This document shows positions 18,359-44,280 of a stretch of 64,000 bases of DNA, one piece after another. Position 1 is the stretch's first letter; each line of letters starts with the position of its first letter. Below the pieces are notes generated by a model. The model saw only the letters and a list, made by a program, of their open reading frames with translations. It was not told the origin of the DNA and did no database searches. The DNA is from Pseudomonas kribbensis (GTDB lineage: Bacteria; Pseudomonadota; Gammaproteobacteria; Pseudomonadales; Pseudomonadaceae). The stretch spans positions 2,604,001 through 2,668,000 of the forward strand of contig NZ_CP029608.1 in NCBI RefSeq assembly GCF_003352185.1. Direction: 5' to 3'. Both the position numbers and the translations under genes were made by a program.

Positions 18359-18784
18359 TCACTGCGTCGAAAGATCGATGCAGGCTGAGCGTGGGGTGTC
18401 GTGACGTTCTGCGGCAGACGCACCCGCTAGCGGCGTGGGGTGGTCCGGCGCTGTGATGCCCCGATGGCCCAGGTTGTCGAGCAACGTGGATCGTGCAATC
18501 TCGATGAGCCAGGCCCGAAACGGAAAGCCGGGGTCATGCCGGGCCTGCTCGAGATACAGGGTCTTGAAGGCTTGCTGGACGAGGCGGCCGGTGTCCTCGC
18601 GACTGATCCTTCCGGCCTGTACCTGGCCTTCGAAATAGGCGATGAGCAACGGTGTCACCGTCGCGAACAGTTGCTGGGATTCAGCCCTGTCATGCCTGAC
18701 GGCGCCCGTGACCAAGGCATACAGTTCGTCGTTGCCGAGTCGGTCAGCCTCGCACAGGCAATGTTGGCGATAACCTTCAGCCAT
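18359..18784 (-). pseudogene. ECF-like sigma factor, truncated (region 2 only)
   Basis: A 141-aa frame with sigma-70 region 2 features: LLIAYFEGQVQAGRISREDTGRLVQQAFKTLY and FPFRAWLIEIARSTLLDNLGHRG. After region 2 only about 25 residues remain before the stop, and no region 4 helix-turn-helix is present. The stop lies 22 bp before the Ohr start, so the 3' part was probably lost when the ohr-katA block came to lie here. ATG 18784 begins MAEGYRQH; a longer frame starts at 18832. It is either a remnant or a diverged short protein. Without region 4 it is unlikely to recognise a -35 element. Confidence 0.6.
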
Positions 18785-19599: not shown

Positions 19600-22500
19600 A
19601 TGCTCGACAACACTTCCTTGCGTGGGACGAATCCCGCGCAGCCCGACGTTTCATCCTCGATTCCGTTCGACACCGATCTGTGCGTGCACGGCCTGTTCGA
19701 AGCGCAGGTGCTGCGCAACCCCGAGGCCATTGCCGTCCGTTGGCAAGCAGAGGCGCTCAGCTACCGCGAACTCAATATCCGCGCCAACCGCCTGGCTCAT
19801 CATCTGCGCAGCCTCGGCGTCGGGCCGGACGTGCGGGTGGGAATTTGTCTCGAGCGTTCGCTGGAAATGCTGGTGGGTGTGCTCGCGGTGCTCAAGGCCG
19901 GAGGTGCCTATGTGCCGCTGGACCCGGCGTATCCGCAGGCGCGGCTGGCGCACATGCTGGCCGACAGCGCGCCGCCGGTGGTGCTGACCCATGGTCAGGC
20001 GCGGCACGTCCTGACGGCTGCGCTCGAACAATCGACCACGGTGCTTGATCTCGGCGATTCAACCCATTGGTCTTCACAGTCACCGGACAATCCCGATCCT
20101 CATGCGGCAGGCCTAACACCCCGACACCTGGCCTACGTGATCTACACCTCGGGTTCGACCGGCACCCCGAAAGGCGTGATGGTCGAGCATCGCGGGCTGA
20201 TCGCCGTGAGCGCTGCCTGGGCACCACTCTATGCCTTGGGCGAGCCGATCAATCACCTGCAAATGGCCGGGTTTTCCTTCGACGTGTTCAGCGCCGACCT
20301 GATTCGTGCGCTGGGGTTTGGCGGCACGCTGGTGCTGTGCCCCCGGTACACCTTGATGGATCCGCCGGCCCTGTATCGCTTGATGCGCGATGCGCAGATC
20401 GGTTTTGCCGACTTCGTGCCGGCGCTGCTCAACCCTTTGCTGGCATGGGTCGAAGAGAGCGGCCATGACTTGTCGTTCCTGCGCACCGTGGTCTGCGGCT
20501 CGGACATCTGGACTGCCCACAGCGCCCGGCAATTGCGCAGGCTCTGCGGTGAGCGGGTGCAGATCGTCCAGGCCTATGGCGTGACCGAAGCGAGCATCGA
20601 CAGCACCTGTTTCGAGTTCACCGAAAGCAGCCAGATCGACGCTGTGCTGCCCATCGGCCAGGCACTGCCCAATACCCGGATTTACCTGTTCGACGAGCAA
20701 GGCGAGCCCGTTGCCGAGGGTGTTGCGGGCGAGTTGTACATCGGTGGCGTCGGCGTGGCGCGGGGGTATCTGAACCTGCCGCAACTCACTGCCGAGCGCT
20801 TCATCGACAACCCGTTCGTGGCGGGCGAACGCTTGTACCGCACCGGAGATCTGGCGCGTCATCGGGCCGACGGCCAACTGGAATTCCTCGGCCGCAACGA
20901 CTCCCAGGCCAAGTTGCGCGGGCTGCGCCTGGAACTGGGGGAAATCGAAACCCGGCTGGCAGACGTTGCAGGCGTGCGTGAAAGCGTGGTGTTGCTGCGT
21001 CAGGACGGCCTCGGTGAACCTCGACTGGTCGCTTATTACTGCGAGAAACCGGGCACAACGCTGAGCCCGCGTTCACTGCGTGAACAGCTGCAAACCAGCC
21101 TGCCGGATTACATGGTGCCGACCGCGTTCGTGCGTCTGGATGCGCTGCCGCTGACCGCCAACGGCAAGGTCGATCGACCGAATCTGCCGGCGCCGGATGT
21201 CGAGGCATTCGATCAGCAGGAATATCAGGCGCCGCAGGGTTCATTGGAAACTGCGCTCGCGGTGATCTGGGCCGAAGTGCTCGGCGTCGAGCGAGTGGGG
21301 CGTGAGGATCAGTTCTTTGCCCTCGGCGGTCACTCGTTGCTGGTGATGCGTGTGCTGGCGCAGGTTCGCCATACGCTGGGGCTGGAAGTCGCGCCTTCGA
21401 CGCTGTTCGCCGCACCCGTTCTGAAACAGTTCGCCGAACGGCTGCAAGCCAGTCAGGCTGCGGCTCGTCCAGCCATCGCGGCCCTTGAACGGACGGGCGC
21501 GCAAACGTTGTCGTCTGCCCAGCAGCGCCTGTGGTTTCTGGCGCAAATGGAGGGGGGCAACGCGGCGTATCACATGCCGCTGAACCTGCGATTGCGCGGT
21601 TTGCTGGACGTTCCGGCGCTTGAGCGCAGCTTCAATCAACTGGTGGCACGCCATGACGCGCTGCGCACCACCTTCACTGCTGTTGAAGGGGAAGGGCGGC
21701 AGCAGGTTTCATCGCCTGCGCACAGCCTTCGACTGACCGTCACCGATCTGCAAGGGCCCGATGCTCAAGAGCGTCTCACCCGGTTGATCGACGAGGAGGG
21801 CGCCCGGCCGTTCGACCTGAGCCGTGGCCCGCTGATGCGGGTAAGCCTGGTGCGGTTGGCGCCGGACGACCATGTGCTGATGCTGACCCAGCACCACATC
21901 ATCTCCGATGGCTGGTCGATGGGCGTGCTCACTCGTGAGCTGGGGCAACTCTACGAAGCGGCGTTGCAGGATCGCGACGATCCGTTGCCGCCATTGCCCG
22001 TGCAGTACGTGGATTACGCCGTGTGGCAGAAGCAATGGCTGACCGGTGAAGTGCTGGAACAGCAGAACCGCTATTGGCGCGAAACCCTCACGGGCGCGCC
22101 GGTGCTGCTGGAATTGCCGACGGATCACAAGCGTCCGCCTGTGCAGGACTACCTCGGCGGCTTTGTTCCGTTGGTCTTCGACGAAGCATTGACCACGCGA
22201 CTGAGAGCCTTGGGCATGCAGCAAGGCACCACGCTGTTCATGACTTTGCTGGCCGGTTTTTCGCTGCTGTTGTCACGACTGTCGGGGCAGGACGATGTGG
22301 TGATCGGCGTGCCATCGGCCAACCGTCCGCAGCAGGAACTTGAAGGGTTGATCGGTTTCTTCGTCAACACCCTGGCACTGCGCATGACCCGATCGGGCTC
22401 GCCGTCGGTGGCGCAATGGCTGCAACAGGCGCGGCGGGTCGCACTGGGGGCTCAGGAGCATCAAGACCTGCCGTTCGAGCAAGTGGTGGAGTTGCTCAAC

Positions 22501-25500
22501 CCGCCACGCAGTCTGGCCCACAGTCCGCTGTTCCAGGTGCTGTTTGCCTGGGAGCAGGATCAGGATTCCGATCTGCTGCTGACCGGGCTCGACGTTACGC
22601 CGGTGGAGAGCAGTCATCACGTCGCCAAGTTCGATCTGCAACTGGCGCTCCATGAGCGCGACGGACAGATCATCGGTGGTCTGGAATACGCCTCGGGCCT
22701 GTTCGAACGCGGCACCGTCGAGCAGTTCGGCGAGTACCTGCGCCGGGTGCTGACGCAGATGGTCGAGGACAGCGAACAGTCGCTGGCGGGGATCAAACTG
22801 CTGAGCGCCGAGCAACACCAGCAGATCGTTCACGACTGGAACCGCACCGCGCGGGACACCGCGTCGCTGCCCGGTTGCGTGGGGCATTTCGAAACCCTCG
22901 CCCGGCAAACGCCCGACGCTGTGGCGCTGCTCGCCGAGCGCGAGCAACTGAGCTACAGCGAGCTGAATCAAGCCGCCAACCGGCTCGCGCATTACCTGAT
23001 CGAACAAGGCGTCGGCCCTGAACATCGTGTCGGCCTGTGCCTGGAACGCTCGCCACAAATGGTCATTGGCCTGCTGGCAATCCTCAAGGCCGGCGCGGCG
23101 TACGTGCCGTTCGACCCGGCGTACCCGAACGAACGTCTGGCGTTCATGTTCAGCGATGCCGCGCCGACCATGCTGCTGACGCAATCGAGTCTGATGGCCG
23201 GGCTGCCGACCAACGAGGCGCAGATCTGCTGCCTGGACACTGACGCATCGCAGTGGGCACAGCACCCGACTGATGATCCGCAAGTCAATGTGAGCCCGGA
23301 AAACCTCGGCTACGTGCTCTACACCTCGGGTTCCACCGGCCGCCCGAAAGGCGTGGCCCACAACCGTCGTGCGCTGGACAACCTGATTAACTGGCAACTC
23401 GATCAAGCCACGGCACCTCAGCGCGTGCTGCAATTCGCCTCGCTGAACTTCGACGTTTCGTTCCAGGAAATCTGCAGCACCCTCTGCCAGGGCGGCAGCC
23501 TGCTGCTGATGACCGAAGACAGTCGCAAGGACCTTGCCGCGCTGCGCCCGACTCTGGTGGCCGAAGGCGTGCAGCGGGCATTCCTGCCATTCGCCGTGTT
23601 GCAACAACTCGCCGGCCTGACCGAGGCCGATGCACCGATGCCGGCCGGTGGTTGCGAGATCATCACCGCCGGTGAAGCCCTGCAAATCAATGACGAGCTG
23701 CGCGGGTTTGTCCGTGGACTGGGTGGCGCGCAGTTGCACAATCAATACGGGCCGACCGAAACCCATGTGGTCAGCCAGTTCAGCCTCGACTGCAACAAGG
23801 TCGAATCCTGGCCGGACGCACCGCCCATCGGCCGTCCCATCGCCAACGCGCGGCTCTACGTGCTGGACGAACATCTGAATCCGGTGCCAGTCGGCGTGGC
23901 GGGCGAGTTGTACATCGCCGGCGCCTGCCTGGCTCGGGGTTACCTGAATCGCCCGGACCTGACTGCCGAACGCTTCCTGCCGGACCCGTTCAGCGACGAG
24001 CCGGGCGCGCGGATGTACCGCAGCGGCGACCTCGCGAAGTTCCAGGCCGACGGCAACGTGCAGTACCTGGGCCGCATCGACCAACAGGTGAAACTGCGCG
24101 GCTTCCGCATTGAACTCGGCGAGATCGACAGCCTGTTGCAGCATCAACCCGGCGTGCAGGAAGCCGCCGTTTTACTGCGTGAAGACGTGGCCGGGGACAA
24201 GCGTCTGGTGGCCTATGTGGTCGGCTCCGCCACCAGTGAATCCCTGCGTGCCGAACTGCAACGCCAGTTGCCCGAACACATGATCCCGAGTGCGTGGGTC
24301 CGGCTCTCGCAATTGCCGCTGACCCGCAACGGCAAGCTCGACCGACAGGCGCTGCCGGCACCGGAACGCAGCGCCGGGGCGACTTACGAGGCGCCGCGCA
24401 ACGACATCGAACGGCAGATGGCCGAGATCTGGGCCGAAGTGCTCAAGTGCGAGCGGGTCGGCATCCACGACAACTTCTTCGACCTCGGCGGCCACTCGCT
24501 GTTGGCGACACGAATGATCTACGCGATCAACCAGCGCATGGGCGCGCAACTGTCCCTGAGCAGCCTGTTTCAGACCCCGGTGTTGATGGATCTGGCGGCG
24601 CAGGTTTCGCGTGAAGAGCAGAGCGTTGAACCGGCGTTCATCCAGATCGAGCCGGATCGCAATGATCGACATGAACCATTCCCCCTGACCGATATCCAGC
24701 AGGCTTACTGGTTCGGTCGCGAGGCCACGGTCAGCCTCGGCGGCGTAAGCGCCCATGGCTACGAAGAACTGCGCATTCCCGGGTTCGATGCCGAGCGTTT
24801 CGAGCAAGCCCTGAATCGCATGATCCTGCGCCACGACATGCTGCGCGTGGTGTTCCTCAGCGACGGTACGCAACAGGTGCTGGCGCAGGTGCCGACCTAC
24901 CGCATGCCCCGCAGCGACCTGCGCGGTTTACCCGCCGAAGAAGCACAACGCACGCTGGAAGCGACCCGCGAACGCCAGTCCCATCAGGTGCTGGATGCCA
25001 GTCGCTGGCCGCTGTTCGAGTTCAGCCTGTCGCTGCTCGATGACGACATCACTCATTTGCACATCAGCCTCGATGCGCTGATCGTCGACGCCGCGAGTAC
25101 GCAGATTCTCGCCCGCGAACTCATGGCCTTCTACGTAGATCCGTTGCTGGAACTGGCCGAACCGGGCCTGACTTTTCGCGACTACGTGCTGGCCGAACAG
25201 CAACTGCGCAACGGCCGCCGCTACGAGCAGGCGCTGGGCTACTGGCGCGAGCGGGTGACTACTCTGGCCCCGGCGCCAGACCTGCCGCTGGTGCGCCAAC
25301 CCGAAAGCATTGCCAACCCGCATTTCACCCGCCGCGACCGCGACATGTCGGCGGCGCAGTGGGCGCAACTCAAAGCCGTGGCCAAGCAGTTTGCGGTGAC
25401 GCCGTCGGTGATGCTGCTGACCGCGTTCAGCGAAGTGCTGGCGCTGTGGAGCCGCACCCCGCGTTTTACCCTGAGTCTGCCGCTGTTCAATCGCATGCCG

Positions 25501-28500
25501 TTGCATTCGGATGTCGATGAAATCATCGGCGACTTCACCTCGCTGGTGCTGCTAGAAATCGGCATCGACGGAGCGCTGAGCTTCACCGACAAGGCCCGCG
25601 CCGTGCAGGCACAGCTTTGGCGCGATATCGACCATTCGGTGGTCAGCGGCGTGCGGGTGCTGCGCGAGTTGTCCCAGGCCCGGGGCGTGCAGCAGACGGC
25701 GATGCCGATCGTGTTCAACAGCACGCTGTCGGAAGCGGCGCCGGAGCTGGCCGAGTTCAACCTCGCGGACGCATTGAACGCCAAGCACATGCACAGCATC
25801 ACCCAGACGCCGCAGGTGTGGCTCGACCACACGTTGCTGGAGCTGGAAGGACGCCTGCTGTTCAACTGGGACAGCATCGACGAACTGTTCCCGCAAGGCA
25901 TGATCGAGCAGATGTTCGTCGCCTATAACACGTTGCTCGACAGTCTCTGCGAGCCGACGGCCTGGGGCGCGAACACGCCACAACTGCTGCCGCAGGCGCG
26001 GTTGCCGGCACCGGTCGACATTCAGCAAACGCTGCCGTTGATGCACGAACTGTTCGAGCGTCAGGCCCTCGTCACGCCGGAGGCACTGGCGGTAATCGGC
26101 ACGCGGCAGCTGACTTACGCTCAACTACGCAATGAGGCCCGACAACTCGGCGCCCGCCTGCAAGCGCAGGGCGTGCTGCCGAACCGCTTGGTGGCGGTGG
26201 TGATGGAGCGCGGCTGGGAACAAGTGGTGGCAACGTTGGCGATTCTGTACGCCGGCGGCGCTTACCTGCCCATCGAGCCAACTCAGCCAGCGGAGCGGCT
26301 GCGGCATATTCTGGAACGGGCGGAGGCGAGTCTGGCCCTGACCCAACCGGCGCTGCTCGACAAAATCGAATGGCCGGCGCAGGTCACGACCATTGCCGTG
26401 ACCGATGCAGTCCCTAACGACGCATTGCCACTGCAACCGGTGCAGGTCAACGAAAGCAACCTCGCTTACGTGATCTACACCTCCGGCTCCACCGGCCAGC
26501 CGAAGGGCGTGGTGATCGACCATCGCGGTGCGGTCAACACCTTGCTCGACATCAACCGCCGTTTTGCCGTCGGGCCGAATGATCGGGTGTTGGCGATCTC
26601 CTCGCTGAGTTTCGACCTGTCGGTCTATGACTTCTTCGGCACGCTGGCGGTAGGCGCGGCGGTGGTCATCCTCGACCCGCAACTGACCCTCGATCCGGCG
26701 CACTGGCTTGCATTGATCAAGCGTCATCAGGTCAGCCTGTGGAACTCGGTGCCGGCGCTGCTCGGCATGCTGGTCGAGTACGTGGAGGGCGAGGGTGGTG
26801 CATTGCCTGCCAGCCTGCGGGTGGCGATGCTGTCCGGCGACTGGATTCCTCTGACCTTGCCTGAGCGGGTCTGGGCGTTGCAGCCGGACTTGCAGCTGAT
26901 CAGCCTCGGCGGCGCCACCGAAGCGTCGATCTGGTCGATCTATTATCCGGTGAAGCACGTCGATCCGGCCTGGCGCAGTATTCCCTACGGCAAGGCTCTC
27001 GACCATCAGCGCTTCTACGTGCTGGATGAAGCGTTGCAGGTCCGTCCGACCTGGGTCGCGGGGCAGCTGTACATCGGCGGCATCGGTCTGGCCAAGGGTT
27101 ACTGGCGTGACGAGAAACTCAGCGCGGGCAGTTTTTTCGACCATCCATTGACCGGCGAACGTCTGTATCGCACCGGCGACCTGGGCCGCTTGCTACCGGA
27201 CGGCAACATCGAATTCCTCGGTCGCGAAGACAATCAGGTCAAGGTCCAGGGTTATCGCATCGAGCTGGGCGAAATCGAAGCCGCGCTCAATCGCCATCCC
27301 GGCGTGCAGAGCGCGGTGGTGCGGATTCTTGGCAGCACGCTGGGTGAGAAACGTCTGGCGGGTTATGTGCTCAAGGCCGATCCGGCGTTGCAGGCCAGTG
27401 ACTTCACCGACTACCTGACGGACAAGCTGCCGGCGTACATGATTCCGTCGTCGTTCACCTTCGTCGAAGCCTGGCCGTTGTCCTCAAACGGCAAGGTCGA
27501 CAAGAAGCGCCTTCCGGAACCGGAGCAAATCGTGGAACAAGGCCCGACGCTGGAAGTCGAGGGCCCGCAGGAACAGCGGCTGGTGGAAATCGTGCAGGGC
27601 GTGCTCAAGCGCGAATCCATTGCCGCCAACGCCAATCTGCTGAACCTCGGCGCGACCTCGATTGATATCGTCAGGATCAGCAACGCCTTGTCCGGCGCCT
27701 TGCAGTTCCGCCCGCATGTGGCGCAACTGCTGGCCCAGCCGACGTTGCTGCATCTGCTCGGCATGTACCGCCAGAACCGGGCCCGTCAGGAATTGCTCGG
27801 CAACGTCCAGCCGACACCGGAGACCCCGCAGGACATCATCGAAGATCCACAGCAGCGGGCACAGTTCAAGGCTGAGCAACGTGGTCGCCGTGAGTTTGCT
27901 CAAACCCTGCCGGCAGTGGCACTGGACTTGCCGCAAGACCCGGCCTTCGCAAGGCGTTTGAGTGATTACCGCTCGGTGCGCCAGTTCGGCGCGCAGCCGA
28001 TTGCGACTCATGCCTTCGCGCATATTTTGGCGGCACTGGCCCAGGGGCAGCTCGACGGTGAAGTGAAATACCAGTTCCCGTCGGCGGGCGGGCTGTACCC
28101 GATTCAGGCTTATCTCTACGTCAAACCTGAGCGCGTGCTCGGCGTGCCCGGTGGCGCGTATTACTACGATCCTCGCCAGCATCGCTTGCTGGCGCTCCAG
28201 AGCGGACTGCTCGACCCGGACACCTACGACTATTTCGTCAATCGCCCGGTGTACGAGAACGCCGCGTTCTCGCTGTTCTTCATCGCCGACATGGCCGCGA
28301 TCCGCCCGCTGTATGGCGAGCGCAGCCGTGACTTCTGCCATATCGAAAGCGGCGCAATGGCCCAGTTGCTGAGCATGACCGCCGTCGAACACGGCCTGGG
28401 CCTGTGCGGCATCGGCTCGGTCGAGGAGCAGCAACTGACGGCGCTGTTCGACCTCGGGCCAAACCACGAGTTGATCTACTCGATGATCGGCGGCCAGCGC

Positions 28501-32708: not shown

Positions 32709-35700
32709 TGAGTGCGTCCAATGACCTGACGTTGCTCGCGCGCTTTGCCGAGCAAGTGCGGCGTAATCCGCAAGCTGCGGCCGTCATCGACGGCTCGGTA
32801 ACCCTGACTTACGCCGAACTGGCCAGCGCCAGCGAGCGCATCGCCCGAGGGTTGCTGGCACGCGGCGTCGAGCCTGGTCAGTCGCTGGCGTTGTGCATGC
32901 CACGTAGCTGGCAGTGGCTGGCGGCGATTCTCGGCGCATTGAAAGTCGGCGCCGTGGTTGTGCCGCTGGACCGTGCCAGTCCGCTCAAGCGTCGGCAGTT
33001 GATGCTGGCGGATGCGGCCTGTGCCGGCCTGATTACCCTGGACGAAGAACCTCAGTGGTCGCCTTCATTGTGGCAGTCCAGCGTCGAGGCCTTGCTCGAC
33101 CAGCCGGACACTCCGCCGCAAGCGCTGACCGCAGAGTTCGCCGAAGTGATGTTCCTGTTTTACACCTCGGGCACCACCGGCATTCCGAAAGCCGTGGAAG
33201 TCGGCGAACGCGGTCTGCTTCGCCTGGCGCACACCAACGGCTATATCGAGATTCGCCCGGCCGACCGGTTCGCCTGCCTGTCCAACCCGGCGTTCGACGC
33301 GTGCAGTTTCGAGCTGTGGGCGCCGCTGCTCAACGGCGGTTGCTGCGTGATGATCGCCGACGAAGACGTGCTGGATGCGCGCCGACTGACCGAGGTGCTG
33401 GAGCGGACGCAGGTCGACAACCTGTTCATGACGGTGTCGTTGTTCAATACCTTGATTGCCGAATGGCCGTCGTGCTTTTCCAGCGCACGTCAGGTATTGA
33501 TCGGCGGCGAGCAGATCAGTGCTGCGGCGGTTCGTGCATGGTATCGAGCCAATCCTGAAAGCCAGTGCCGGATTCATAACGTCTATGGCCCCACCGAATG
33601 CACCACGTTTGCCCTGTGCTGGCCGATCAGCCGCGACTTTACCGGTGACCTCGCGCCCATTGGCCGAGCACTTCCGGATACCGGCGTGCAGGTGCTGGAC
33701 GAGCAGCAACGGCCGGTGCCGGCGGGAGAGGTGGGCGAGTTGTATCTGAGTGGCAGCGGCGTCGCCCGTGGCTACCGTAACCGGCCCGAAGAAACGGCCC
33801 GTCAGTTTGTCCGATTGCCCGGCCTCGACGGTGGCGCATACGTCCATTACCGCACCGGCGATCTGGTGCGCTGCAATGCCGAAGGCCTGATCGAATGTCT
33901 GGGACGGGTTGATCGACAGGTGAAAATTCGCGGCTTCCGCATCGAGCCGGGGGAGGTGGAGCAACGGATACTGGAGCATCCGGGCGTGACGCAGGTGTAC
34001 GTCTGCACCCGGCGTCAGGCGGCGGAAGATCATCAGCTGCTGGCGTTCATCGTGGCGCGCGGGGAGCTGGACTATCACGCCTTCGAAGTCCATCTGCGGG
34101 CGCAACTGGCGCCGTATATGCGGCCGCATCAGTTGTTCCTGCTGGAGCGTCTGCCGCTGACGGCCAATGGCAAGATCGATCGCGACAGCTTGCTGGGGCA
34201 GCCGCTGAGTCCATGGCATCCAGCTTCCGTAGCCATGGAAAACGACAACACTTCGCCGGCGCTGGACTGGTTGCTGAGTCAGGCCCGTTCGCTGCTCGGT
34301 CAACCGGGCTTGAACGCGCAGGACGACTGGCTGGGTAGTGGCGGCGATTCGCTCAAGGCCATGCGTCTGCGTTCGGCAATTCGTACCCGTTGGCAGCGCG
34401 AGATCCCCCTCGACAAGTTGCTCAACGAGTCTTTCTCATCATTGGCCGGACAACTGCTGGGCGAGCATGGCGAGTCGACCTATCCCCCTGCGCCCGGGAT
34501 CAGTTGCGCCGCACGCTTGCCGGCCACCGCCGAACAGCGCCGCCTGTGGCTGTTGCAGCAGCGCACGCCGACCTCGACCGCTTACAGCGTGCCGCTGATT
34601 CTGCATCTGGCGGCAGGTGTCGAGGTCGCGGCACTGGGCGAGGCCGTTGACCGTCTGGTGAAGCGCCATCCTGGTTTGCGCACGGCATTCGCATCGGGGG
34701 GCGATGGTCTTGATCAGTTGATCGCCGAGCAAGGCCCGGCCAGCCGCACCTTTGCTGTCGGGCATTTCACCGAAGACAACTGGCAGGCGTTCGCGGAGCT
34801 GGTGTTCGCCACGCCATTCGACCTGTCCACGCCAAACCTGTTTCAAGCGTGGCTGTTGCCGTTCGCCGATGGCAGCTGTCGGCTGCTGCTGAACCTGCAT
34901 CACATCATCGTCGATGGCTGGTCGGTGAATCTGTTGTTCGACGACCTGAAGCAGCTCTATGCCGACGCTGTGCAAGGTCGCGAAAGTACTGAATCGGCAG
35001 CCCATCTGACGACGCTGGAGTTTGGCCAGTGGCAGCGGCAGTGGAGCGTCGATCCGCATTACCGCGACCAGCGTCGCGCTCTGGCCGAGTTACATCGTCG
35101 GCAGGAGGAACCGTCGCCTGCATTAATGCCGATGCGCGAAATCAGCCCGGACGCCCGGTTACACCGGGAACCGTTGGGCGCCATGCGCAGCGCCGCCCTC
35201 GAACGGTTCTGCACGCAACAGCGACTGACACGTTTCGAAGTGCTGTTCAGTGTCTTCGCCTGGAGTCTTTACGTCCTGACCGGGTGCGAGCGACCCCGGA
35301 TCGCCAGCCCGGTGGCCAACCGGCCCCTGGCTGAGCTCGAGGACAGCGTCGGCATGTTCGCCAACACCGTGCTGATTCCCACCGTCGTTGACCACGAGCT
35401 GACCCTCGGCGAGCAACTGCGCAAGCAGACTGCAACGGTACGCGAGGTATTAGCGCTGCAGGACGTGGCGCTGGCGGATCTGGTGGAAGACCTGCGGTTG
35501 TCGTCGAGTACCGCGCTGTTCGATTTCATGTTCGTGCTGGAAAACACTGATTACGCGGCGTTGGTCGATTCAAACCTGTGCGCCACGCTGGAATTCAACG
35601 AGCAGTTGCACGCCAAGTGCCCGCTGACCTTATTGATGGTGGGCAGCGGTTCGCAGCTTGAGTGTTGGTGGGAATATCAGTGCAGCTATTTCGATGCCGA

Positions 35701-38700
35701 CCAGATGAGCACGGTGAACGCATTGTTCCGCCGTGGTCTGGATCTGTTGCTGGAAAGCCCGACGGCGACGCTCGACAGTCTGCTGGGGCCTTATCGACTG
35801 GGGCTGGCCCCGGCCAGTGAAGGGCTGACGGGCGATCTGCCGTTCAACACCCTGGCGGACTGGTTCGAGCATCAGGTGCATTGCACGCCGGATGCGATTG
35901 CGTTGGTTCAAGGTCAGCGCCAACTCACTTATGGCGAGCTGAATGGACTGGCCGACGCTCTGGCTGGTGACTTGGTTGAACGCCATCCGTTGCCGACTCG
36001 GAATGCGTCGCTGCATGTCGTGCTGTTCCTCGATGCCTCGGTCGAGCACATCGTCGCGCTGCTGGCCCTGGCCAAACTCAACCTGACCGCCGCGCCGCTG
36101 GATCCCGGTTATCCGGTGGCGATCCAGCGTCAGGTGCTGGAGCAGGCTCAGCCGCATTGTGTGCTGTTCAGCGACACGACGGCGGCCGCGCTCGATGATC
36201 TCAATGCCGGGCGATTCGCCACGCACCGGGTCGATCTGCACGTCGATGCCGAAGCGTTTGAGCGCCCACGTCACGCCGGCGAGCGACCGCTGTACACGCT
36301 GTTCACCTCCGGCTCGACCGGCACGCCCAAAGGTGTGCAAGTGTCGGAACGCACCCTGTGCAACCTGCTGCAATGGCAGCGCACGAAAGGGCAGTTGCCT
36401 GCGAAAGCGGTGACCTTGCAGTTCTCCATGCTGTCGTTCGACGTGTCGTTTCAGGAGATTTTCAGCACCCTGTGTGGGGGCGGCTGCTATCACCTGATCA
36501 CGCCGCGCTGGCGTCAGGATGCCGAGGCGTTGCTGGGTTACATGGTCGAGGCGCGGATCGAACGGTTGTTCCTGCCGTACGTGGCGTTGCAGCATCTGGC
36601 GCAAACCGCTGTGGCTCGGGGAATCTACCCGTCGGCATTGCGCGAAGTGATCACCGCCGGAGAGCAACTGCTCTGCACGGACGCGCTGCGCAACTGGTTC
36701 GGCGGCATGCCGCAGGCCTCGTTGTTCAATCACTACGGCCCGACCGAAACCCATGTGGTCAGCGCCTTGCGATTGCCTGCGGTGCCCCGTGACTGGCCGT
36801 TGCGTGCACCGATCGGTCACGCCGTCGGCAATGCCCGGTTGCTGTTGGTCGATGAGTTTGATCGCCCGGTGCCAATTGGCAGTCGCGGCTATCTGCTGGT
36901 GGCGGGGCCGATGGTTGAGCGTTGTTATCTGGCCGATCCTGCGCTGAATGCCGCGCGGTTTGTCGAGCTGCCAGAGGACCGCTTGTACTATCGCACCGGC
37001 GATCTGGCGTGGGCCGATGCCCAAGGCTGTCTGCATTATCTGGGACGTGACGACCAGCAGATCAAACTCAGCGGCCATCGTCTGGAGTTGGGGCAGATCG
37101 AGGCGGCGCTGATGCAGGTGCCGGAAGTGGTCAACGCGGTGGTGGCGGTTCAGGCTGATCCGCCGCGCCTGATCGCCTGGCTGCAACTCGACGGCGAGCC
37201 TGCGACGTCGCAACAGCTGGATCGTCAGGTCGCGCAACGCCTGCCGGCCCATGTGCGGATCGATGAGTATCGCCGGATCGACGTCTGGCCACGCACCCCA
37301 AGTGGCAAGATCGACCGTAAGGCCTTGCCGAATGTGGGCGAGGCGCTGGAGCGGCGCAGCACGCCACAACCGGCTGTGCAATTGACTGCGCTGGAGCGGC
37401 AACTGAGCGAGCTGTTCCGGGATGTGATCGGCCGTGAAATCGAACCGGATCAGACCTTCTTCGAGGCCGGCGCCACCAGTCTCGGGCTGATGCGTTTGCA
37501 TGGCCGTTACGCAGAAGAGCTGCCGCACAAGGTGACGATGGCCGACCTGTTCGAACACGTCACGGTTCGGCGCCTGGCGGCGCATCTGTCGACGGCTTCG
37601 GTGGCAGCAGTGGAGCGTGTCCGGCAAACCGATGCAGGTCATCAGCCGATGGCGATCATCGGCATGTCGGTCAATGTGGCCGGGGCGCAAAACCTGGGCG
37701 AATTCTGGGCGATGGTGCAGGGTAACGAGCTGGGCATCGAACGCTTTGCCGCCGAAGAAGGTCTGGTCGGCGCCCGCAGCCAACTGGCCGGCATGCTCGA
37801 CTTCGATCCCGAGTACTTCGGCATCAGTCGTCAGGAAGCGCGGCTGATGGACCCGCAACAGCGGCATCTGCTGATGGGGTGCGTGCAGGCCCTGCAACAC
37901 GCGGCCATCGTTCCGTCGGCGGACGGTCCGCGCATCGGCCTGATCGCCAGTTGCGGCGAAACCACCTACTTCCAACAGATGCTGCACGAGACCGCTGAAG
38001 GCGATCTGCCGGACGGTTTCCAGATGGCGCTGCATCACGACAAGGACTTTCTGGCGACCAAAGCCGCGTATCACCTGGACCTCAACGGCCCGGCCCTGAG
38101 CGTGCAGGCGGCGTGCGGCAGCTCGCTGATCGCCGTGCACATGGCCAGTTCGATGCTGCGTCAGGGCGACAGTGACGTGATGCTGGCCGCCGGCGTGCTG
38201 ATCGACCCGACCCTGACCGATGGCTATCGTCATCGCTCGCAGCACATCTTTTCCGCCGATGGCCTGTGCCGTCCATTCAGCGACGACGCCAGCGGGACCA
38301 TCGGCGCCAGCGGTTATGGCGTGGTGGTGCTCAAGCCATTGGCCAGGGCGCGGGCGGATGGCGACCGGATCTACGCGTTGCTCGAAGGTTCTGCACTGAA
38401 CAACGATGGCCGGGCCAAGATGAGTTACACCGCGCCGTCGGTGGCCGGGCAGAGTGCGGTCATCAGTGATGCCCTGAACCGCGCCGGGTTGACCGGTACG
38501 GACATCGGTTACATCGAAGCCCATGGCACCGGCACTTTGCTGGGGGATCCGATTGAGGTTGCGGCGTTGACCAAGGCCTTCGGCGAGGCGCCGGCCGGCA
38601 GTTGCGCGCTGGCCTCGGTGAAGAGCCAGATCGGTCATCTGGGGGCGGCAGCGGGGGTGGTCGGGCTGATTCGCGCCAGTCTGGCGGTGTTCCATGGCGT

Positions 38701-41700
38701 GCTGCCACCGAACCTCGGGTTTGGCCGGATCAATCCGCAGATTGATCTGGAGCATTCGCCGTTCTACGTGCCCACCACGTCCCGACCATGGCCGGAAGGG
38801 CGGCGGCGTCTGGCGGGTGTCAGCAGCTTCGGGATTGGTGGGACCAACGCTCATGTGATTGTCGGCGCCGCACCCAAGGCGCAGGAAGTGGCCGAGGAAA
38901 CGCTGCCACTGCTGATGATCTCGGCTCACAGCCGAACTGAATTGCTGCGCGATATCGCGGTGATCCGCGAACATATGCAAGCGCATCCGGAACAGCAGAC
39001 TGCATTGCTGAGGTACTTGCAGTCTGGTCGCCGCCAACTGCGCTGGCGCTTCGGGATGGTCTGCCAACCGGGTGATGAAATTCCTTTGCAGCCAACATCG
39101 ATCAAGGAAGTCAACACGTCGGCTGCACAACTGATCGCCCGTGATCATTCAGCGCAGGCATTACTGGAGGCCTGGTACGAAGGCGCCCATATCCAGTGGC
39201 CGCAGCGCTCGGCACCGCCACCGTGGGATTTGTCGCCATCGCCTTTTGATCTCCAGACCTATCGGTTTCAACCTGCTGGCGAAATCGCTGTCCCTGTTTC
39301 CGCAGGTATCGAGCGGCAACCTCTGGCGCAGTGGTTTCATCAACGGCAGTGGGTGCGCGTCCAGCGCCTGAACACAAAGGCAATGAACGGCGCACGAGAA
39401 ACGTTGATCCTTTGCAGCCATGAAACACCCGGCGTGGCATTGCTGGAACATCTGCGAACGGTTTATCGACGCGTGGTTCAAGTCCGCACCGGCAACGGCT
39501 TCAAGCATCTCGGCGCAGATCGTTTCGAACTGGATCCGCTGGACACCGAAGCCCTGAGCCGTTTGCTCGCCGAGGTCACAGAATCTGAACCCGGCGAACT
39601 CGACTGGCTGCACACCTTGCCGCTGGCGGTGTCAGGCGCGGTCAACGAGCAATCGCTGGATCTGGCGCAGTGGGCCTGTCTGGACACGGTCAGCGCGCTG
39701 ATGCAGGCCTGGGGGCAAATCGCACGCACGACTCGTCTGCGCCTGTGGCTGATGTCGTGGCAGGCGTGCCCGGTGGACGGCGAGGTCCGGCGTCCCGAGC
39801 TGGGGGCACTGGCCGGGATCAGCGAAGTGGTGCCGCAGGAATACCCGGTGCGATGCCACTGGCTAGACTGGCCGTCGCCGCACCTTGATACGCAGGCCGT
39901 AGAGCTTGCGGCGCTGCTCGGTGATCCGGCGGCGTTGCCTCGGCGGATGGCGTTGCGCGACGGTTACCTGTGGCAACCACGGTTGATCGCTCAGTCATTG
40001 CCGGGCCCGACATTAACTTCCAGCCTGTTGCCGGAAGACGGCACGTTTCTGGTGCTGGGTGGCACCGGCGGGATCGGTCGAACCCTTTGCGAACATCTGT
40101 TGCAGGTACCTGCACGGCGTGTGGTGCTGCTCTCCCGTCAAGGTGAATTGCCTGCAGAACTCGCGGCCTACGCCTCGCGAATCGACTGCGTTCAGGCGGA
40201 TATCGCGGATCTGTCGCGCTGGCCGCAGGTACTCGATCATCTGGCCCGACGTTACGGTCAACTGACCGGGGTGATTCATGCGGCGGGTGTCGGTGCCGGC
40301 AGTCTGATTCGCCATCGCGATGCCCGGCAGATGGCCGAGGCGATGGCCGCCAAGACTCGCGGCATGCTCGCGGTTGAAAGCCTGATCGAACAGCTTTCGC
40401 CGGGCTTCGTCCTGTACTGCTCGTCGATGTCGGCATTGTTCGGCGGCGCGGGGCATCTGGATTATTCGGCAGCCAGCGGCGTGCTCGATGGCTTCGCGCA
40501 TTACCGTCCGGACACGGCCAAGGCTTGCCTGCGTCTGGGCATCAACTGGGATATCTGGCGCGACATCGGCATGGCCACGACCAGCAATGGCGGGGACGCT
40601 GCGCATCAGGAGCATCTGACGGTCGGCTTGTCGGCCGAAGAGGGGTGTCGGGTGTTCGATCTGGCGATGGCGACGCAGTTGCCACAATTGCTGGTTTCCA
40701 CCACCGGCATCGACACCGCGCGGCGCTTCTATCCGGTTCGCCATGGCGCTGTTGCCGCACCGGTCGAAGTGCCGAAAGGCGTGGATCTTTCCGTGCGCCT
40801 GCGTGAATGCCTGTGCAAATGGCTCGGCGTTGTTGAGCTGGAGGACGACGATTCGCTGTACGACCTGGGTGCGGATTCGCTGACCTTGCTGGACCTGATC
40901 GATGAACTGCAAGCGGCCACCGGTGAGGTATTTCAGTTGTCGCAGTTCAGCCACAAAGTCAGCCTGAGCGAGGTGTTGGGGCTGGTGGCAGATTCCACGG
41001 CAGAGGCTTCAGATGACGCGCCGCATAGCTGGAACGACGCGGTGCGGATCGATCAATGGCATGCCGGCGCCGGTCGCGAATGGCTGTATTTGATCCATCC
41101 GGTGGGCGGCGATGTTCAGGCCTACCGGGAACTGGTTTCAACGCTGCCGACGGATCTGGGTGTCTGCGTGATCGCAGATCCTGCGTTGCGTGTGCCGGCG
41201 CTGCCGAACATCAGCATTGTCGAACGAGCCCGGTGGTATCTGCAGGCGATCAAGGCCCACCTCCCGGACGATTGTGCCTGGCGTCTGGCGGGGTGGTCGT
41301 TCGGGGCCTGGGTGGCGCAGGCGCTGTGTCTGCAAGCTCAGGCTGAAGGCTTCAGGCAACCGCTGCTGTATCTGATCGACCCACCCGCGCCGGATGCCGG
41401 TGCGGAACTGGCCGGCTTCGACGAGCGGACCATCGAACAGGTGTTCCAGCGTGAGTTCGCCCAGCGCTGGCCCGACGTCGAAGGGCAGGGGATGTCCGAG
41501 GAGCGTCAGGCTTATCTGCAACGGCTGACGGTGTGCTGTCGCAATAACATGGCCAGCATGGTCGATTTCCAGCCCCCGGCGTTGGTCGCCACATCCGTGT
41601 GGATGTTTATCGCCGGGCACGCCAACCCTTATGGACTGGGCAACGCCTGGAACATGAATGACCTGCAACGCAACTGGCAGGCCTTGCTGCCGCAGTTGCA

Positions 41701-41800
41701 GAGCTGGCAGCAACTGGACACCGACCACTACGGCATCGTGGCGGGCCGTTGGGCGCGGTTGCTGGCCGAGGTCATCGGCACGGAGGAGTCGTCGAGATGA
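32705..41800 (+). CDS. NRPS3: hybrid A-T-C-A-T-KS-KR-ACP-TE synthetase lacking an AT domain
   Basis: A 3031-aa hybrid NRPS-PKS whose ATG overlaps the NRPS2 stop, with a strong AGGAGG site. A5 spans about 15-500 (code about DAFFLGVTFK, branched aliphatic such as Val/Ile); T Ser549; C about 600-1040 with HHIIVDG at 732; A6 about 1051-1545 (code DVQFIAHVVK, the classical Pro code); T Ser1592; KS about 1649-2055 with Cys1804, His1940 and His1978 all present; KR about 2445-2619 with Ser2574 and Tyr2587; ACP Ser2725; TE with Ser2865 (GWSFG) and His3008. Between KS and KR the usual linkers are joined directly and no AT motif (GHSxG) is found, so malonate must be loaded in trans. It starts without a C domain, so it begins its own chain. 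Expected product: Val/Ile-Pro plus a two-carbon unit reduced to the beta-alcohol. Confidence 0.95.
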   Translation: MMSASNDLTLLARFAEQVRRNPQAAAVIDGSVTLTYAELASASERIARGLLARGVEPGQSLALCMPRSWQWLAAILGALKVGAVVVPLDRASPLKRRQLMLADAACAGLITLDEEPQWSPSLWQSSVEALLDQPDTPPQALTAEFAEVMFLFYTSGTTGIPKAVEVGERGLLRLAHTNGYIEIRPADRFACLSNPAFDACSFELWAPLLNGGCCVMIADEDVLDARRLTEVLERTQVDNLFMTVSLFNTLIAEWPSCFSSARQVLIGGEQISAAAVRAWYRANPESQCRIHNVYGPTECTTFALCWPISRDFTGDLAPIGRALPDTGVQVLDEQQRPVPAGEVGELYLSGSGVARGYRNRPEETARQFVRLPGLDGGAYVHYRTGDLVRCNAEGLIECLGRVDRQVKIRGFRIEPGEVEQRILEHPGVTQVYVCTRRQAAEDHQLLAFIVARGELDYHAFEVHLRAQLAPYMRPHQLFLLERLPLTANGKIDRDSLLGQPLSPWHPASVAMENDNTSPALDWLLSQARSLLGQPGLNAQDDWLGSGGDSLKAMRLRSAIRTRWQREIPLDKLLNESFSSLAGQLLGEHGESTYPPAPGISCAARLPATAEQRRLWLLQQRTPTSTAYSVPLILHLAAGVEVAALGEAVDRLVKRHPGLRTAFASGGDGLDQLIAEQGPASRTFAVGHFTEDNWQAFAELVFATPFDLSTPNLFQAWLLPFADGSCRLLLNLHHIIVDGWSVNLLFDDLKQLYADAVQGRESTESAAHLTTLEFGQWQRQWSVDPHYRDQRRALAELHRRQEEPSPALMPMREISPDARLHREPLGAMRSAALERFCTQQRLTRFEVLFSVFAWSLYVLTGCERPRIASPVANRPLAELEDSVGMFANTVLIPTVVDHELTLGEQLRKQTATVREVLALQDVALADLVEDLRLSSSTALFDFMFVLENTDYAALVDSNLCATLEFNEQLHAKCPLTLLMVGSGSQLECWWEYQCSYFDADQMSTVNALFRRGLDLLLESPTATLDSLLGPYRLGLAPASEGLTGDLPFNTLADWFEHQVHCTPDAIALVQGQRQLTYGELNGLADALAGDLVERHPLPTRNASLHVVLFLDASVEHIVALLALAKLNLTAAPLDPGYPVAIQRQVLEQAQPHCVLFSDTTAAALDDLNAGRFATHRVDLHVDAEAFERPRHAGERPLYTLFTSGSTGTPKGVQVSERTLCNLLQWQRTKGQLPAKAVTLQFSMLSFDVSFQEIFSTLCGGGCYHLITPRWRQDAEALLGYMVEARIERLFLPYVALQHLAQTAVARGIYPSALREVITAGEQLLCTDALRNWFGGMPQASLFNHYGPTETHVVSALRLPAVPRDWPLRAPIGHAVGNARLLLVDEFDRPVPIGSRGYLLVAGPMVERCYLADPALNAARFVELPEDRLYYRTGDLAWADAQGCLHYLGRDDQQIKLSGHRLELGQIEAALMQVPEVVNAVVAVQADPPRLIAWLQLDGEPATSQQLDRQVAQRLPAHVRIDEYRRIDVWPRTPSGKIDRKALPNVGEALERRSTPQPAVQLTALERQLSELFRDVIGREIEPDQTFFEAGATSLGLMRLHGRYAEELPHKVTMADLFEHVTVRRLAAHLSTASVAAVERVRQTDAGHQPMAIIGMSVNVAGAQNLGEFWAMVQGNELGIERFAAEEGLVGARSQLAGMLDFDPEYFGISRQEARLMDPQQRHLLMGCVQALQHAAIVPSADGPRIGLIASCGETTYFQQMLHETAEGDLPDGFQMALHHDKDFLATKAAYHLDLNGPALSVQAACGSSLIAVHMASSMLRQGDSDVMLAAGVLIDPTLTDGYRHRSQHIFSADGLCRPFSDDASGTIGASGYGVVVLKPLARARADGDRIYALLEGSALNNDGRAKMSYTAPSVAGQSAVISDALNRAGLTGTDIGYIEAHGTGTLLGDPIEVAALTKAFGEAPAGSCALASVKSQIGHLGAAAGVVGLIRASLAVFHGVLPPNLGFGRINPQIDLEHSPFYVPTTSRPWPEGRRRLAGVSSFGIGGTNAHVIVGAAPKAQEVAEETLPLLMISAHSRTELLRDIAVIREHMQAHPEQQTALLRYLQSGRRQLRWRFGMVCQPGDEIPLQPTSIKEVNTSAAQLIARDHSAQALLEAWYEGAHIQWPQRSAPPPWDLSPSPFDLQTYRFQPAGEIAVPVSAGIERQPLAQWFHQRQWVRVQRLNTKAMNGARETLILCSHETPGVALLEHLRTVYRRVVQVRTGNGFKHLGADRFELDPLDTEALSRLLAEVTESEPGELDWLHTLPLAVSGAVNEQSLDLAQWACLDTVSALMQAWGQIARTTRLRLWLMSWQACPVDGEVRRPELGALAGISEVVPQEYPVRCHWLDWPSPHLDTQAVELAALLGDPAALPRRMALRDGYLWQPRLIAQSLPGPTLTSSLLPEDGTFLVLGGTGGIGRTLCEHLLQVPARRVVLLSRQGELPAELAAYASRIDCVQADIADLSRWPQVLDHLARRYGQLTGVIHAAGVGAGSLIRHRDARQMAEAMAAKTRGMLAVESLIEQLSPGFVLYCSSMSALFGGAGHLDYSAASGVLDGFAHYRPDTAKACLRLGINWDIWRDIGMATTSNGGDAAHQEHLTVGLSAEEGCRVFDLAMATQLPQLLVSTTGIDTARRFYPVRHGAVAAPVEVPKGVDLSVRLRECLCKWLGVVELEDDDSLYDLGADSLTLLDLIDELQAATGEVFQLSQFSHKVSLSEVLGLVADSTAEASDDAPHSWNDAVRIDQWHAGAGREWLYLIHPVGGDVQAYRELVSTLPTDLGVCVIADPALRVPALPNISIVERARWYLQAIKAHLPDDCAWRLAGWSFGAWVAQALCLQAQAEGFRQPLLYLIDPPAPDAGAELAGFDERTIEQVFQREFAQRWPDVEGQGMSEERQAYLQRLTVCCRNNMASMVDFQPPALVATSVWMFIAGHANPYGLGNAWNMNDLQRNWQALLPQLQSWQQLDTDHYGIVAGRWARLLAEVIGTEESSR

Positions 41801-42471
41801 ATGAGCCGATCTTGATGCCTCGGTGGTTGCCAACCTTGGCGCAGGTGCTGTGCGAAGAGCAGCCCGATGTCTTGCTTCAAATGATTTACAGGGTCGATGA
41901 ACCGCAGTCGCTTCGGCCAGTTCATCGTTGGCAAGCCGACGTGGTGCTGCCGATGCTATGCGAGGCATTGCCGAAACACCGGCCAGCGCTGCTCGCACTG
42001 CAAAGCCTGCATCAACGGGCGGCCCTCGGTTTGTCCGGGCGTCACGGCGAGTGGCGGGCCACCCTCAAACCGGTGTTGCTGGCGTTGTATCGACGGGCCT
42101 ATGCCTATGACGCGGCGTACGCCCAGGCCCATGCCAGTGCGATGACTTACGGCCTCGCGCCGACCAACACCGCGATGATCGCCGAGCACTTCGGCGATGC
42201 CGAGGCGTTCGCGGTGTATTACGCGCAACTGAATACCGACGCCAGCGCCACTGCGTTCGCTCAGGCCCATGCCGCCGCCAATGTTGAAATCTCGTCCCGG
42301 GCTTTTGCGACTGACGACGCGGATGCGTATGCGCAGGTTTGCGCAGCGTCGGCGCGGGTTTATGTCTGGGCCTGTGCGAAGACCGACGAGGAGCGGCGCA
42401 CGCTGTTCAACCATCTCGCAGAAGGGCTGGTCCGGCACCTGCAGTCCCATCCAACAGGAGAAACGACATGA
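41797..42471 (+). CDS. Unknown Ala-rich protein inside the NRPS operon
   Basis: A 224-aa protein of no family I recognise. Its ATG overlaps the NRPS3 stop by 4 bp and its own stop overlaps the MbtH start, so it is translated with the pathway enzymes. It has no signal peptide or membrane helix. The second half is rich in Ala and Tyr and holds a recurring YAQ/FAQ element: AYAQAHAS near 107, YYAQLNT near 141, AFAQAHAA near 153, AYAQVCAA near 177. The N-terminal 100 residues are helical and Leu-rich. Possible roles are a structural partner or a tailoring enzyme, but nothing in the sequence shows catalytic residues. Confidence 0.85.
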   Translation: MNEPILMPRWLPTLAQVLCEEQPDVLLQMIYRVDEPQSLRPVHRWQADVVLPMLCEALPKHRPALLALQSLHQRAALGLSGRHGEWRATLKPVLLALYRRAYAYDAAYAQAHASAMTYGLAPTNTAMIAEHFGDAEAFAVYYAQLNTDASATAFAQAHAAANVEISSRAFATDDADAYAQVCAASARVYVWACAKTDEERRTLFNHLAEGLVRHLQSHPTGETT

Positions 42472-42674
42472 ATGACGCACAGCAGCAATTCGATGTGGTG
42501 ATCAACGCTCAGGGTCAGTATTCCCTGTGGCCGGCGGGCAAGCCGATGGCCAGCGGCTGGAGCGCGGCCGGGATGCGGGGTGAACGTCAGGTCTGTCTGG
42601 ATTACATCAATGAGCACTGGATCGACATGCGCCCGCGTTCTCTGCGCGAGCAGTCATCGGCGTCGTTCCAATAA
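42468..42674 (+). CDS. MbtH-like protein
   Basis: A 68-aa MbtH-family protein, the small chaperone that many adenylation domains need for folding and activity. The family signature is complete: FDVVINAQGQYSLWP, GW near residue 25, CLDYINEHW and DMRPRSL. Its ATG overlaps the preceding stop (ATGA), and AGGAG lies 7-8 bases upstream. It presumably serves one or more of the six A domains of this operon. Confidence 0.95.
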   Translation: MNDAQQQFDVVINAQGQYSLWPAGKPMASGWSAAGMRGERQVCLDYINEHWIDMRPRSLREQSSASFQ

Positions 42675-42689
42675 AAAAGGTGAGGAAAC

Positions 42690-43559
42690 ATGGATCAGTT
42701 GGCACTCAAGGCAATCGAGCGCATCGCCGCAGAAAAGCGCGCACCGTATCAGCGAATCACGGTCGACCGGATCACGCCGATCATCGGTGCCGAAATCGGT
42801 GGCGTCGATCTTTCGCAACCGTTGGAGGACGCTCAGCTCGCGGAAATCCGCCGGGCCTTTCTGGAGAACCACGTGTTGGTGTTCCGCGATCAGCATCTGA
42901 CGGTGGAAGAGCACAAGGCGTTTGGTCGGCTGTTCGGTGAACTGCGGGCGTTGCCGGTGGAGGATATCGACGGCGATGACCCGGAACTGGTGGTGATCCG
43001 TGCCAATGCGCAATCGCGCTACGTGGCCGGCGAAACCTGGCACACCGACGGTACGGCTGACCTGGCGCCGTCCATGGGGTCGATGCTGTACGTCAAGGAA
43101 ACCCCGGCCATCGGCACGGGTGGCGATACGCTGTTCGCCAACATGCACCTGGCGATTGAAATGCTTTCGCCAACGATGCAGCAGTTTCTCGGTGAATTGA
43201 CCGCGATTCATGACGGTGCGATCCCGTGGAAAGGTTATGAGGCGCCCGCCAACCTGCCAAAAACCGAACACCCGGTGGTGGTGCGTCATCCGGAAACCGG
43301 ACGCAAGTCGCTGTTCGTCAATTCCGGGTTCACGTCGCACATCGTGCAATTGTCCGGGGGCGAAAGTCAGGTGCTGTTGAACATGCTGTTCGACCTGGTG
43401 GCTCGGGAGCCGTCCCTCAGCTGCCGCGTTCGCTGGGCACCGAACACGCTGGTGTTCTGGGACAACCGCTGCACCCAGCACCACGCGATCTGGGATTACT
43501 TCCCGCATTCGCGTTATGGCGAGCGGGTGACGATTCTCGGGACGCAGCCCAAGGCTTGA
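42690..43559 (+). CDS. TauD-like Fe(II)/2-oxoglutarate dioxygenase
   Basis: A 289-aa dioxygenase of the TauD family. Iron ligands are His118 and Asp120 (WHTDG) and His264 (WDNRCTQHH), with the 2-oxoglutarate Arg in ERVTILG. The fold follows taurine dioxygenase closely (ITPIIGAEIGGVDLSQPL..., FVNSGFTSHIVQLSGGES), but it is the last gene of the NRPS operon, 15 bp after mbtH with a GAGG site, and no taurine genes are near. The likely job is hydroxylation of an amino-acid unit. By analogy with detoxin/rimosamide pathways, where a TauD-type enzyme accompanies the same hybrid synthetase, Pro is the best candidate (inference). Confidence 0.9.
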   Translation: MDQLALKAIERIAAEKRAPYQRITVDRITPIIGAEIGGVDLSQPLEDAQLAEIRRAFLENHVLVFRDQHLTVEEHKAFGRLFGELRALPVEDIDGDDPELVVIRANAQSRYVAGETWHTDGTADLAPSMGSMLYVKETPAIGTGGDTLFANMHLAIEMLSPTMQQFLGELTAIHDGAIPWKGYEAPANLPKTEHPVVVRHPETGRKSLFVNSGFTSHIVQLSGGESQVLLNMLFDLVAREPSLSCRVRWAPNTLVFWDNRCTQHHAIWDYFPHSRYGERVTILGTQPKA

Positions 43560-43593: not shown

Positions 43594-44280
43594 CTAGATA
43601 CCGCGCCGTATCAGCTGCTCGACGATCAACTCACCGAACGCCAGATTGCCGTGCAGCGGGTCATCCACTTCGCAGAATGCCTCACGCTGAAAACCCTGCT
43701 CATCGTTCGCCGCCTCGCGTACGTCGATCAGCTCGACGCCAAGCCCTTGCAGGCGTTCGATCAACAACGACTGCGCCGCCATGAATACGCGCGGGTCGGA
43801 CAGCTCCGGCACCCGTTGCGGCGGCAGCACGGCGAACACCTTGAGGTTCAGCGCCAGGGCCTGTTCATAGAAGGCCAGGGCGGGGCGGGACAGGGTGTCG
43901 ATGACCGTCTCGAACAATGGCCCGGAGAGAAAACCGTCGTCGAACTCACCCTGCGCATTCTGGTAACAGGTCCAGTTCGGTGCGGTGGCCAGATAGTGCA
44001 GGCTCAGGCCGAGGGTGCTCACCAGCGGCACCTCGACTTTTGCCAGTTGCGGCACTTCGAGCGTGGCGAGGGCCTGGCGGTACAGCCGATCCATTTCCGC
44101 ATCCCGAAAGACCACGTCATGACGGGTCAACTGGAAGAAGTCGACGGCAAAATCCCGACCGGTACCGAGCGGACCACCACCGAAAGGCAGTTCACGGGCC
44201 TGCGCCGCCTTGCCGATGACGCCGGCATGGGAGTCGCCCAGCAGCAGAAACCTAGGCGTAGTAATCGAGTACGGCGTCTT
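43594..44280 (-). CDS. SGNH/GDSL-like hydrolase
   Basis: A protein of about 228 aa with the SGNH-hydrolase opening FLLLGDSHAG and a late catalytic pair in DDPLHGN. No signal peptide is seen. I chose GTG 44280 because GAGG lies 9 bases upstream; this overlaps the end of the GSCFA gene by about 29 bp. An ATG at 44358 would extend it with an unlikely Arg/Pro-rich leader. It is paired with a GSCFA-domain protein, another SGNH relative, so the two may work on the same acylated substrate. The substrate is unknown. Confidence 0.7.
   Translation of the reverse strand, partial: KTPYSITTPRFLLLGDSHAGVIGKAAQARELPFGGGPLGTGRDFAVDFFQLTRHDVVFRDAEMDRLYRQALATLEVPQLAKVEVPLVSTLGLSLHYLATAPNWTCYQNAQGEFDDGFLSGPLFETVIDTLSRPALAFYEQALALNLKVFAVLPPQRVPELSDPRVFMAAQSLLIERLQGLGVELIDVREAANDEQGFQREAFCEVDDPLHGNLAFGELIVEQLIRRGI

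Follow-up and report, generated by a model that had tools for sequence, protein, structure and literature searches.

Pseudotetraivprolide is a detoxin/rimosamide-like "anti-antibiotic" of Pseudomonas (PMC12828459; this and the other papers are cited here from parts of their text). Its biosynthetic cluster, pip, has been described in P. entomophila, where in strain L48 its genes carry the locus tags PSEEN_RS12600-RS12635, and comprises two NRPSs, an NRPS/PKS, the PipE dioxygenase, the PipH N-acetyltransferase, the PipG GSCFA protein, PipD and PipF (PMC12828459). PipA and PipB produce an Arg-Pro-thiazole-Met chain and PipC produces Ile/Val-Pro-(reduced acetate); the first chain is taken here as Ac-Arg-Pro-thiazole-Met, from its published synthesis and the methionine sulfoxide derivatives (PMC12828459). 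The internal PipB thioesterase (TE) is held to join the chains as an ester because its deletion, or a change of its serine, abolished the full-length products and left both halves, and the PipC TE releases the joined product (PMC12828459). When pipC was missing the tetrapeptide was found in traces only, pipC alone in E. coli yielded its half, and both free halves were detected in P. entomophila (PMC12828459). PipH, PipE and PipDFG act afterwards, mainly on the joined ester (PMC12828459).

The same proposal of an ester-forming TE has been made for pseudovibriamide B (PMC12911931). The ppp cluster of Pseudovibrio has two TEs, like the locus described here, and its first-chain TE has been proposed either to release the peptide free or to esterify it with the NRPS/PKS product; it differs in a heptapeptide first chain, a ureido link, and PPTase and type II TE genes of its own (PMC12911931). 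The chitinimides of Chitinimonas koreensis (chm cluster) share the NRPS/PKS plus tauD core, the ester-joined second chain and, with the pip family, antagonism of blasticidin S, whereas their first chain is built by eight modules and has a ureido linkage (PMC8302735). The detoxins and rimosamides of Streptomyces have the conserved NRPS/PKS and TauD-type core (as related in PMC8302735 and PMC12911931) but a shorter first chain, with up to three A domains (PMC8302735). The characteristic product of detoxin/rimosamide-like clusters is ester-joined and protects Bacillus cereus from blasticidin S.

Here we describe a locus of Pseudomonas kribbensis in a window of 64,000 nucleotides (2604001-2668000 of a single-contig genome of 6,324,282 bases); positions below are counted from the first base of this window. 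We are confident that this locus represents an apparently complete pip (pseudotetraivprolide) cluster, one of the detoxin/rimosamide-like family, with an ester-joined two-chain product. Gene content, domain order, specificity codes, active-site residues and the absence of a dedicated AT were observed directly. An AT-less NRPS/PKS, an adjoining TauD gene and a first-chain NRPS with its own TE were found, which place it among the detoxin/rimosamide-like clusters, and two NRPSs plus an NRPS/PKS, pipD-H, and a PipA without starter C domain alongside PipH place it in pip. In common with pip of P. entomophila L48 are pipA-H, the domain order, the AT-less PipC, two TEs, the missing PipA starter C domain and the catalytic residue numbers of PipF and PipG (PMC12828459). 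The match was made by description, residue numbers and relatives. Secimide had been considered as the product identity and was dropped; the pip description matched (PMC12828459).

All eight pip genes are present in order, with pipF-H convergent on the minus strand. A first-pass annotation had placed the system at 19600..43559 and had described all its genes as coupled by ATGA overlaps. That interval does contain the three synthetase genes and pipE, but an mbtH-like gene within it (42468-42674) had been overlooked and the system continues to 45840, through pipF, pipG and pipH on the minus strand. ATGA overlaps occur at four junctions (28596, 32705, 41797 and 42468); coupling of all genes was overstated, because pipE starts (42690) 15 bases past the mbtH gene. 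Whole-protein E-values for the A, C, KS, KR and TE profiles in NRPS1-3 (Pfam) were all 2.6e-15 or better, so the domain calls are not due to chance.

Three small frames 5' of pipA (18359-18832 minus, 18982-19521 plus and 19112-19654 minus) have relatives in some loci, among the matches listed. A Pfam scan of the first two found no family above cut-off. The frame at 18359-18832 (157 aa) has a weak Sigma70_r2 match (20.4 bits against a cut-off of 24) and relatives at 73-78% in four loci (L057-L060), among the matches listed; it may encode a small sigma-like protein, located upstream of pipA. Approximately 37 kb before the window, two tandem thioesterase matches (G000:C1:2565506-2566786) end a single open frame of 4929 aa, an arrangement that we take to be that of Pseudomonas lipopeptide synthetases.

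The pipA-type NRPS gene (19600..28599, plus strand, 2999 aa) encodes A(Arg)-T-C-A(Pro)-T-Cy-A(Cys)-T-Ox, as called by Pfam and motifs, with the starter C domain absent and AMP-binding, from residue 33, as the first Pfam domain. Its codes, placed by motif, are DVADVCAID (Arg), DVQLIAQVV (Pro) and DLYNMSLIW (Cys). The Cy domain carries its DxxxxD motif at residues 1825-1830, the third T domain has its motif at residue 2681, and the oxidase is of nitroreductase type (residues 2791-2963, Pfam); Cy, the third T and the ACP of PipC were called by motif search. The specificity-code positions and meanings and the DxxxxD motif are what we take to be the usual signatures, and the codes for the Arg, Pro, Cys, Ile/Val and Pro building blocks fit the specificities so assumed.

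The pipB-type NRPS gene (28596..32708, plus strand, 1370 aa) encodes TubC_N docking-C-A-T-TE by Pfam and motifs, so that the NRPS of the first chain ends in its own TE. The code of its A domain, DAWVFGVVI, has no separate reference here, and residue X of the first chain is probably Met by analogy with the published chain. The TE domain (32016..32666, plus strand; PF00975, residues 1141-1357) has its serine at S1210 and its histidine at H1341, and would be ester-forming by analogy with P. entomophila (PMC12828459). Comparison with solved structures placed it among ordinary NRPS/PKS thioesterases (best 4zxh at 1e-14), a result that does not discriminate ester formation from hydrolysis. The essential serine of the PipB TE is given in the published work as Ser-2856 (PMC12828459). 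PipB has only 1370 aa in the window, and its frame measures 1371-1482 aa between stop codons in 22 relatives. The PipC TE serine in the window is at 2865, and the mismatch is probably a matter of numbering.

The pipC-type NRPS/PKS gene (32705..41800, plus strand, 3031 aa) encodes A(Ile/Val)-T-C-A(Pro)-T-KS-KR-ACP-TE by Pfam and motifs. AMP-binding starts at residue 14 with no preceding C domain (Pfam), the codes are DAFFLGVTF (Ile/Val) and DVQLIAHVV (Pro), and the TE has S2865 and H3008. The Cys/His/His motifs of the KS and the KR and ACP motifs, which we take to be their signatures, were all located. Two domain observations of the first-pass annotation are thus borne out: NRPS1 and NRPS3 begin with A-T and lack a C domain there (AMP-binding from residues 33 and 14), and a thioesterase with an intact serine closes both NRPS2 and NRPS3 (S1210 and S2865). 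That annotation made no mention of the missing AT domain, a FabD-dependent module or a described family. No AT domain was found by Pfam in the PKS module of PipC. Genome-wide there are two Acyl_transf_1 proteins: one scores 380.2 bits, above the FabD cut-off of 260.9, and the other 349.3 bits, above the MdcH cut-off of 297.9. Since the module has no AT, its malonyl loading is probably carried out by FabD of fatty acid synthesis, by analogy with the P. entomophila PipC ACP, which FabD loads in vitro, although self-acylation of the ACP was also seen at 25 uM and above (PMC12828459).

The accessory genes follow. For pipD (41797..42471, plus strand) no Pfam family scored above cut-off; its position, ATGA overlap and same-place homologues in relatives suggest that it is a member of the PipDFG O-acetylation complex. 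The mbtH-like gene (42468..42674, plus strand, 68 aa) was called from its reading frame and from a PF03621 match over cut-off (G000:C1:2646462-2646614). A TauD-family dioxygenase gene, pipE (42690..43559, plus strand; PF02668, E 1.1e-58), stands beside the NRPS/PKS and encodes the proposed proline hydroxylase. On the minus strand are pipF (43594..44283), for a GDS-type hydrolase-like protein, and pipG (44252..45286), for a GSCFA protein (PF08885, E 3.1e-53 for the longer frame), both proposed to take part in O-acetylation. With GTG starts at 44283 and 45286, respectively, they have Ser18, Asp208 and His211 in PipF and the CxxxH pair Cys47/His51 in PipG, in agreement with the published numbers. 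The last gene, pipH (45325..45840, minus strand; PF13302, E 4.5e-25), encodes a GNAT N-acetyltransferase proposed to acetylate the N-terminus. The window differs from the published cluster in belonging to another species, known here from its genes alone, and in having mbtH between pipD and pipE, a gene that the cited part of the paper mentions for P. viridiflava only (PMC12828459).

By analogy with the published relative, chemistry and order of steps in this strain would be as follows. PipA and PipB would build an Arg-Pro-thiazole-X tetrapeptide (X probably Met). Separately, PipC would build Ile/Val-Pro, add one malonyl unit, probably supplied by FabD to its AT-less module, and reduce it to a hydroxyl. 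The PipB TE would move the tetrapeptide onto this hydroxyl, forming the ester, and the PipC TE would free the joined molecule. PipH would then acetylate the N-terminus, PipE would hydroxylate the proline ring, and PipD, PipF and PipG together would acetylate the proline hydroxyl. The two chains first proposed for this DNA (Arg, Pro-like, thiazole, X; and Val/Ile, Pro, reduced two-carbon unit) are consistent with the codes and with the published pip products (PMC12828459).

Conservation was assessed in two sets of loci: set 1, 24 loci retrieved by searching with the NRPS3 C-terminal part, and set 2, 20 further loci, some genomes being in both. All set-1 loci are from Pseudomonas, the best being P. 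bananamidigenes BW11P2 (89% over the C-terminal part of NRPS3); two further genomes reach 91% to the NRPS3 query. A search of 398 genomes from the genus, among them that of the window, matched the KS-to-TE part of NRPS3 at E <= 1e-100 in 35. In 30 of these (own included) a single match with 63-100% identity spans the greater part of the 1392 residues, and G034 matched in two pieces; four genomes (G018, G037, G134 and G370) matched in the KS region only, at 44-48%, and were not counted as pip. The PipB code is identical in 41 of the 44 loci (some genomes counted twice), the A domain being unreadable in the other three (L023, L024 and L067). Among the 20 loci that reach the start of PipA, the Arg code is the same in 19, the exception reading DVADLCAID. 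The Cys code is the same in 18; of the other two loci, one reads DLYNMSLVW and one is missing the domain. These code counts leave out A1, A2 and A3 of L024 and A3 of L067 (truncated PipA, misaligned) and C1 of L001 and L012 (NRPS3 not in one frame). The serine motifs of both the PipB and the PipC TE were found in 22/22 set-1 relatives with both frames readable (L023 and L024, where the PipB frame is absent, are left out).

Other parts of the cluster vary. The genes pipD, pipF and pipG travel together: all three occur in 15 and none in 5 of the set-2 loci (n = 20; in L080 the piece ends within PipG), and all three in 7 and none in 17 of the set-1 loci (n = 24, E <= 1e-10), the absence in L009 being weak because only ~2.6 kb downstream is present. 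An MbtH match (E <= 1e-3) was lacking in 6/24 set-1 and 8/20 set-2 downstream loci. Gene content is therefore not uniform among relatives, as no MbtH match was found in G190, G200, G102 and G127, four relatives from the group with pipD at 50-62% identity. A shortened first-chain line was seen in P. cerasi (L024, and L067 of the same genome, G192): A1, C and A2 of PipA run into a 79-residue stretch from the end of the PipB A domain and then the PipB TE. At E <= 1e-20 there was no match for Cy, A3, Ox, the PipB C domain or most of the PipB A domain. NRPS3 is broken into frames in L001 (longest 1839 aa) and L012 (longest 2411 aa) and lies in two frames in G034 (L042 and L093), reflecting either decay or assembly error.

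The three synthetase genes are translationally coupled and in order, as would suit one colinear line in which the PipB TE is vestigial and the tetrapeptide is passed to PipC to give a linear seven-unit product. However, PipC starts with A-T and has no upstream C domain for accepting a chain, and the serine motif of the PipB TE is kept in every readable set-1 relative, which argues against a dead internal TE. Loss of that TE or its serine in P. entomophila, moreover, abolishes the full-length product while the halves remain (PMC12828459). We give a colinear line virtually no credence, in line with the first-pass annotation, which saw a single colinear chain as incompatible with this architecture. 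That annotation had allowed for the chains being either joined or released separately, and both are seen in published pip, where joining is the main outcome and the halves also occur alone (PMC12828459). Two separate final products would arise if the lines worked side by side, each TE hydrolysing its own chain only; each line has its own TE, the free halves of P. entomophila fit this (PMC12828459), and Pseudovibrio also releases its first chain as pseudovibriamide A (PMC12911931). Yet the joined ester is the full-length pip product and the accessory enzymes act mainly on it (PMC12828459), and all the accessory genes are present here, so that we hold two separate final products to be very improbable.

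A pip-type line with the same mechanism could also make a different product, for example one in which X is not Met, in that DAWVFGVVI is interpreted here from the product published for another species. However, the code is identical in all 41 readable loci, including two P. viridiflava strains (L013 and L018), and another P. viridiflava strain has compound profiles like those of P. entomophila except for O-acetylation (PMC12828459). We consider a different product unlikely, and the ester-joined pip product is the reading adopted here.

The starter C domain of PipA bears on how the first chain is capped. That PipH goes with the absence of the starter C domain has been published, as has truncation of this domain in P. 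viridiflava (PMC12828459). In the window, PipA is without this domain and PipH is present. A tblastn search with the N-terminal regions of 20 relatives found no C-domain remnant upstream of 19600; all hits at E < 0.05 fell within 19553-19698, the gene start itself, and a remnant 5' of pipA was rejected. Of the PipA starts read in 20 relatives, 12 lack the C domain altogether. Five others carry ~280-290 residues in which HHxxxDG is absent, and the remaining 3 carry ~500 residues with HHIICDG. The five half domains (L063-L066 and L074) precede A1, break at a similar position (~profile position 195 to the end), and align with the second half of L072, from residue 229-233 onward, at 36-55%. In Pfam, L063, L066 and L074 matched the Condensation profile in its second half only (from 193-198 to the end; E 8.5e-35, 1.7e-29 and 5.9e-25) and L072 matched the whole profile; L069 gave no Pfam match in the 51 residues preceding A1.

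PipH is present in 17/17 relatives without a full starter C domain (13 by direct search and 4 via the set-1 loci of the same genomes, L002, L004, L005 and L007), and no PipH match at E <= 1e-10 was found anywhere in the genome in 3/3 genomes with the full domain. These three form one clade (100/100; tree of the NRPS part of PipC), so the association counts as one contrast, not three. This tree explains the three C-domain states with 4 changes, and its well-supported branches require "none" and "truncated" to have arisen at least 2 times each. With a midpoint root and a very long L074 branch, any count or direction of losses is tentative. Tentatively, capping of the first chain may have been swapped, perhaps repeatedly, with the PipA starter C domain lost or halved and PipH taking over, and the half domain may be structural or gatekeeping instead of debris. 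The spread of half domains and the possible repeated loss go slightly further than the cited part of the published account (PMC12828459), and the PipH and C-domain counts were made independently of it.

The feature is thus one of a family already described, whose mechanism has also been published. Two starters and two thioesterases in one operon are a known arrangement, in which assembly is convergent and an internal thioesterase forms the ester. By analogy with the published relative, the product would have antidote activity, and this Pseudomonas genome would be one more that carries a probable antidote cluster against blasticidin S.
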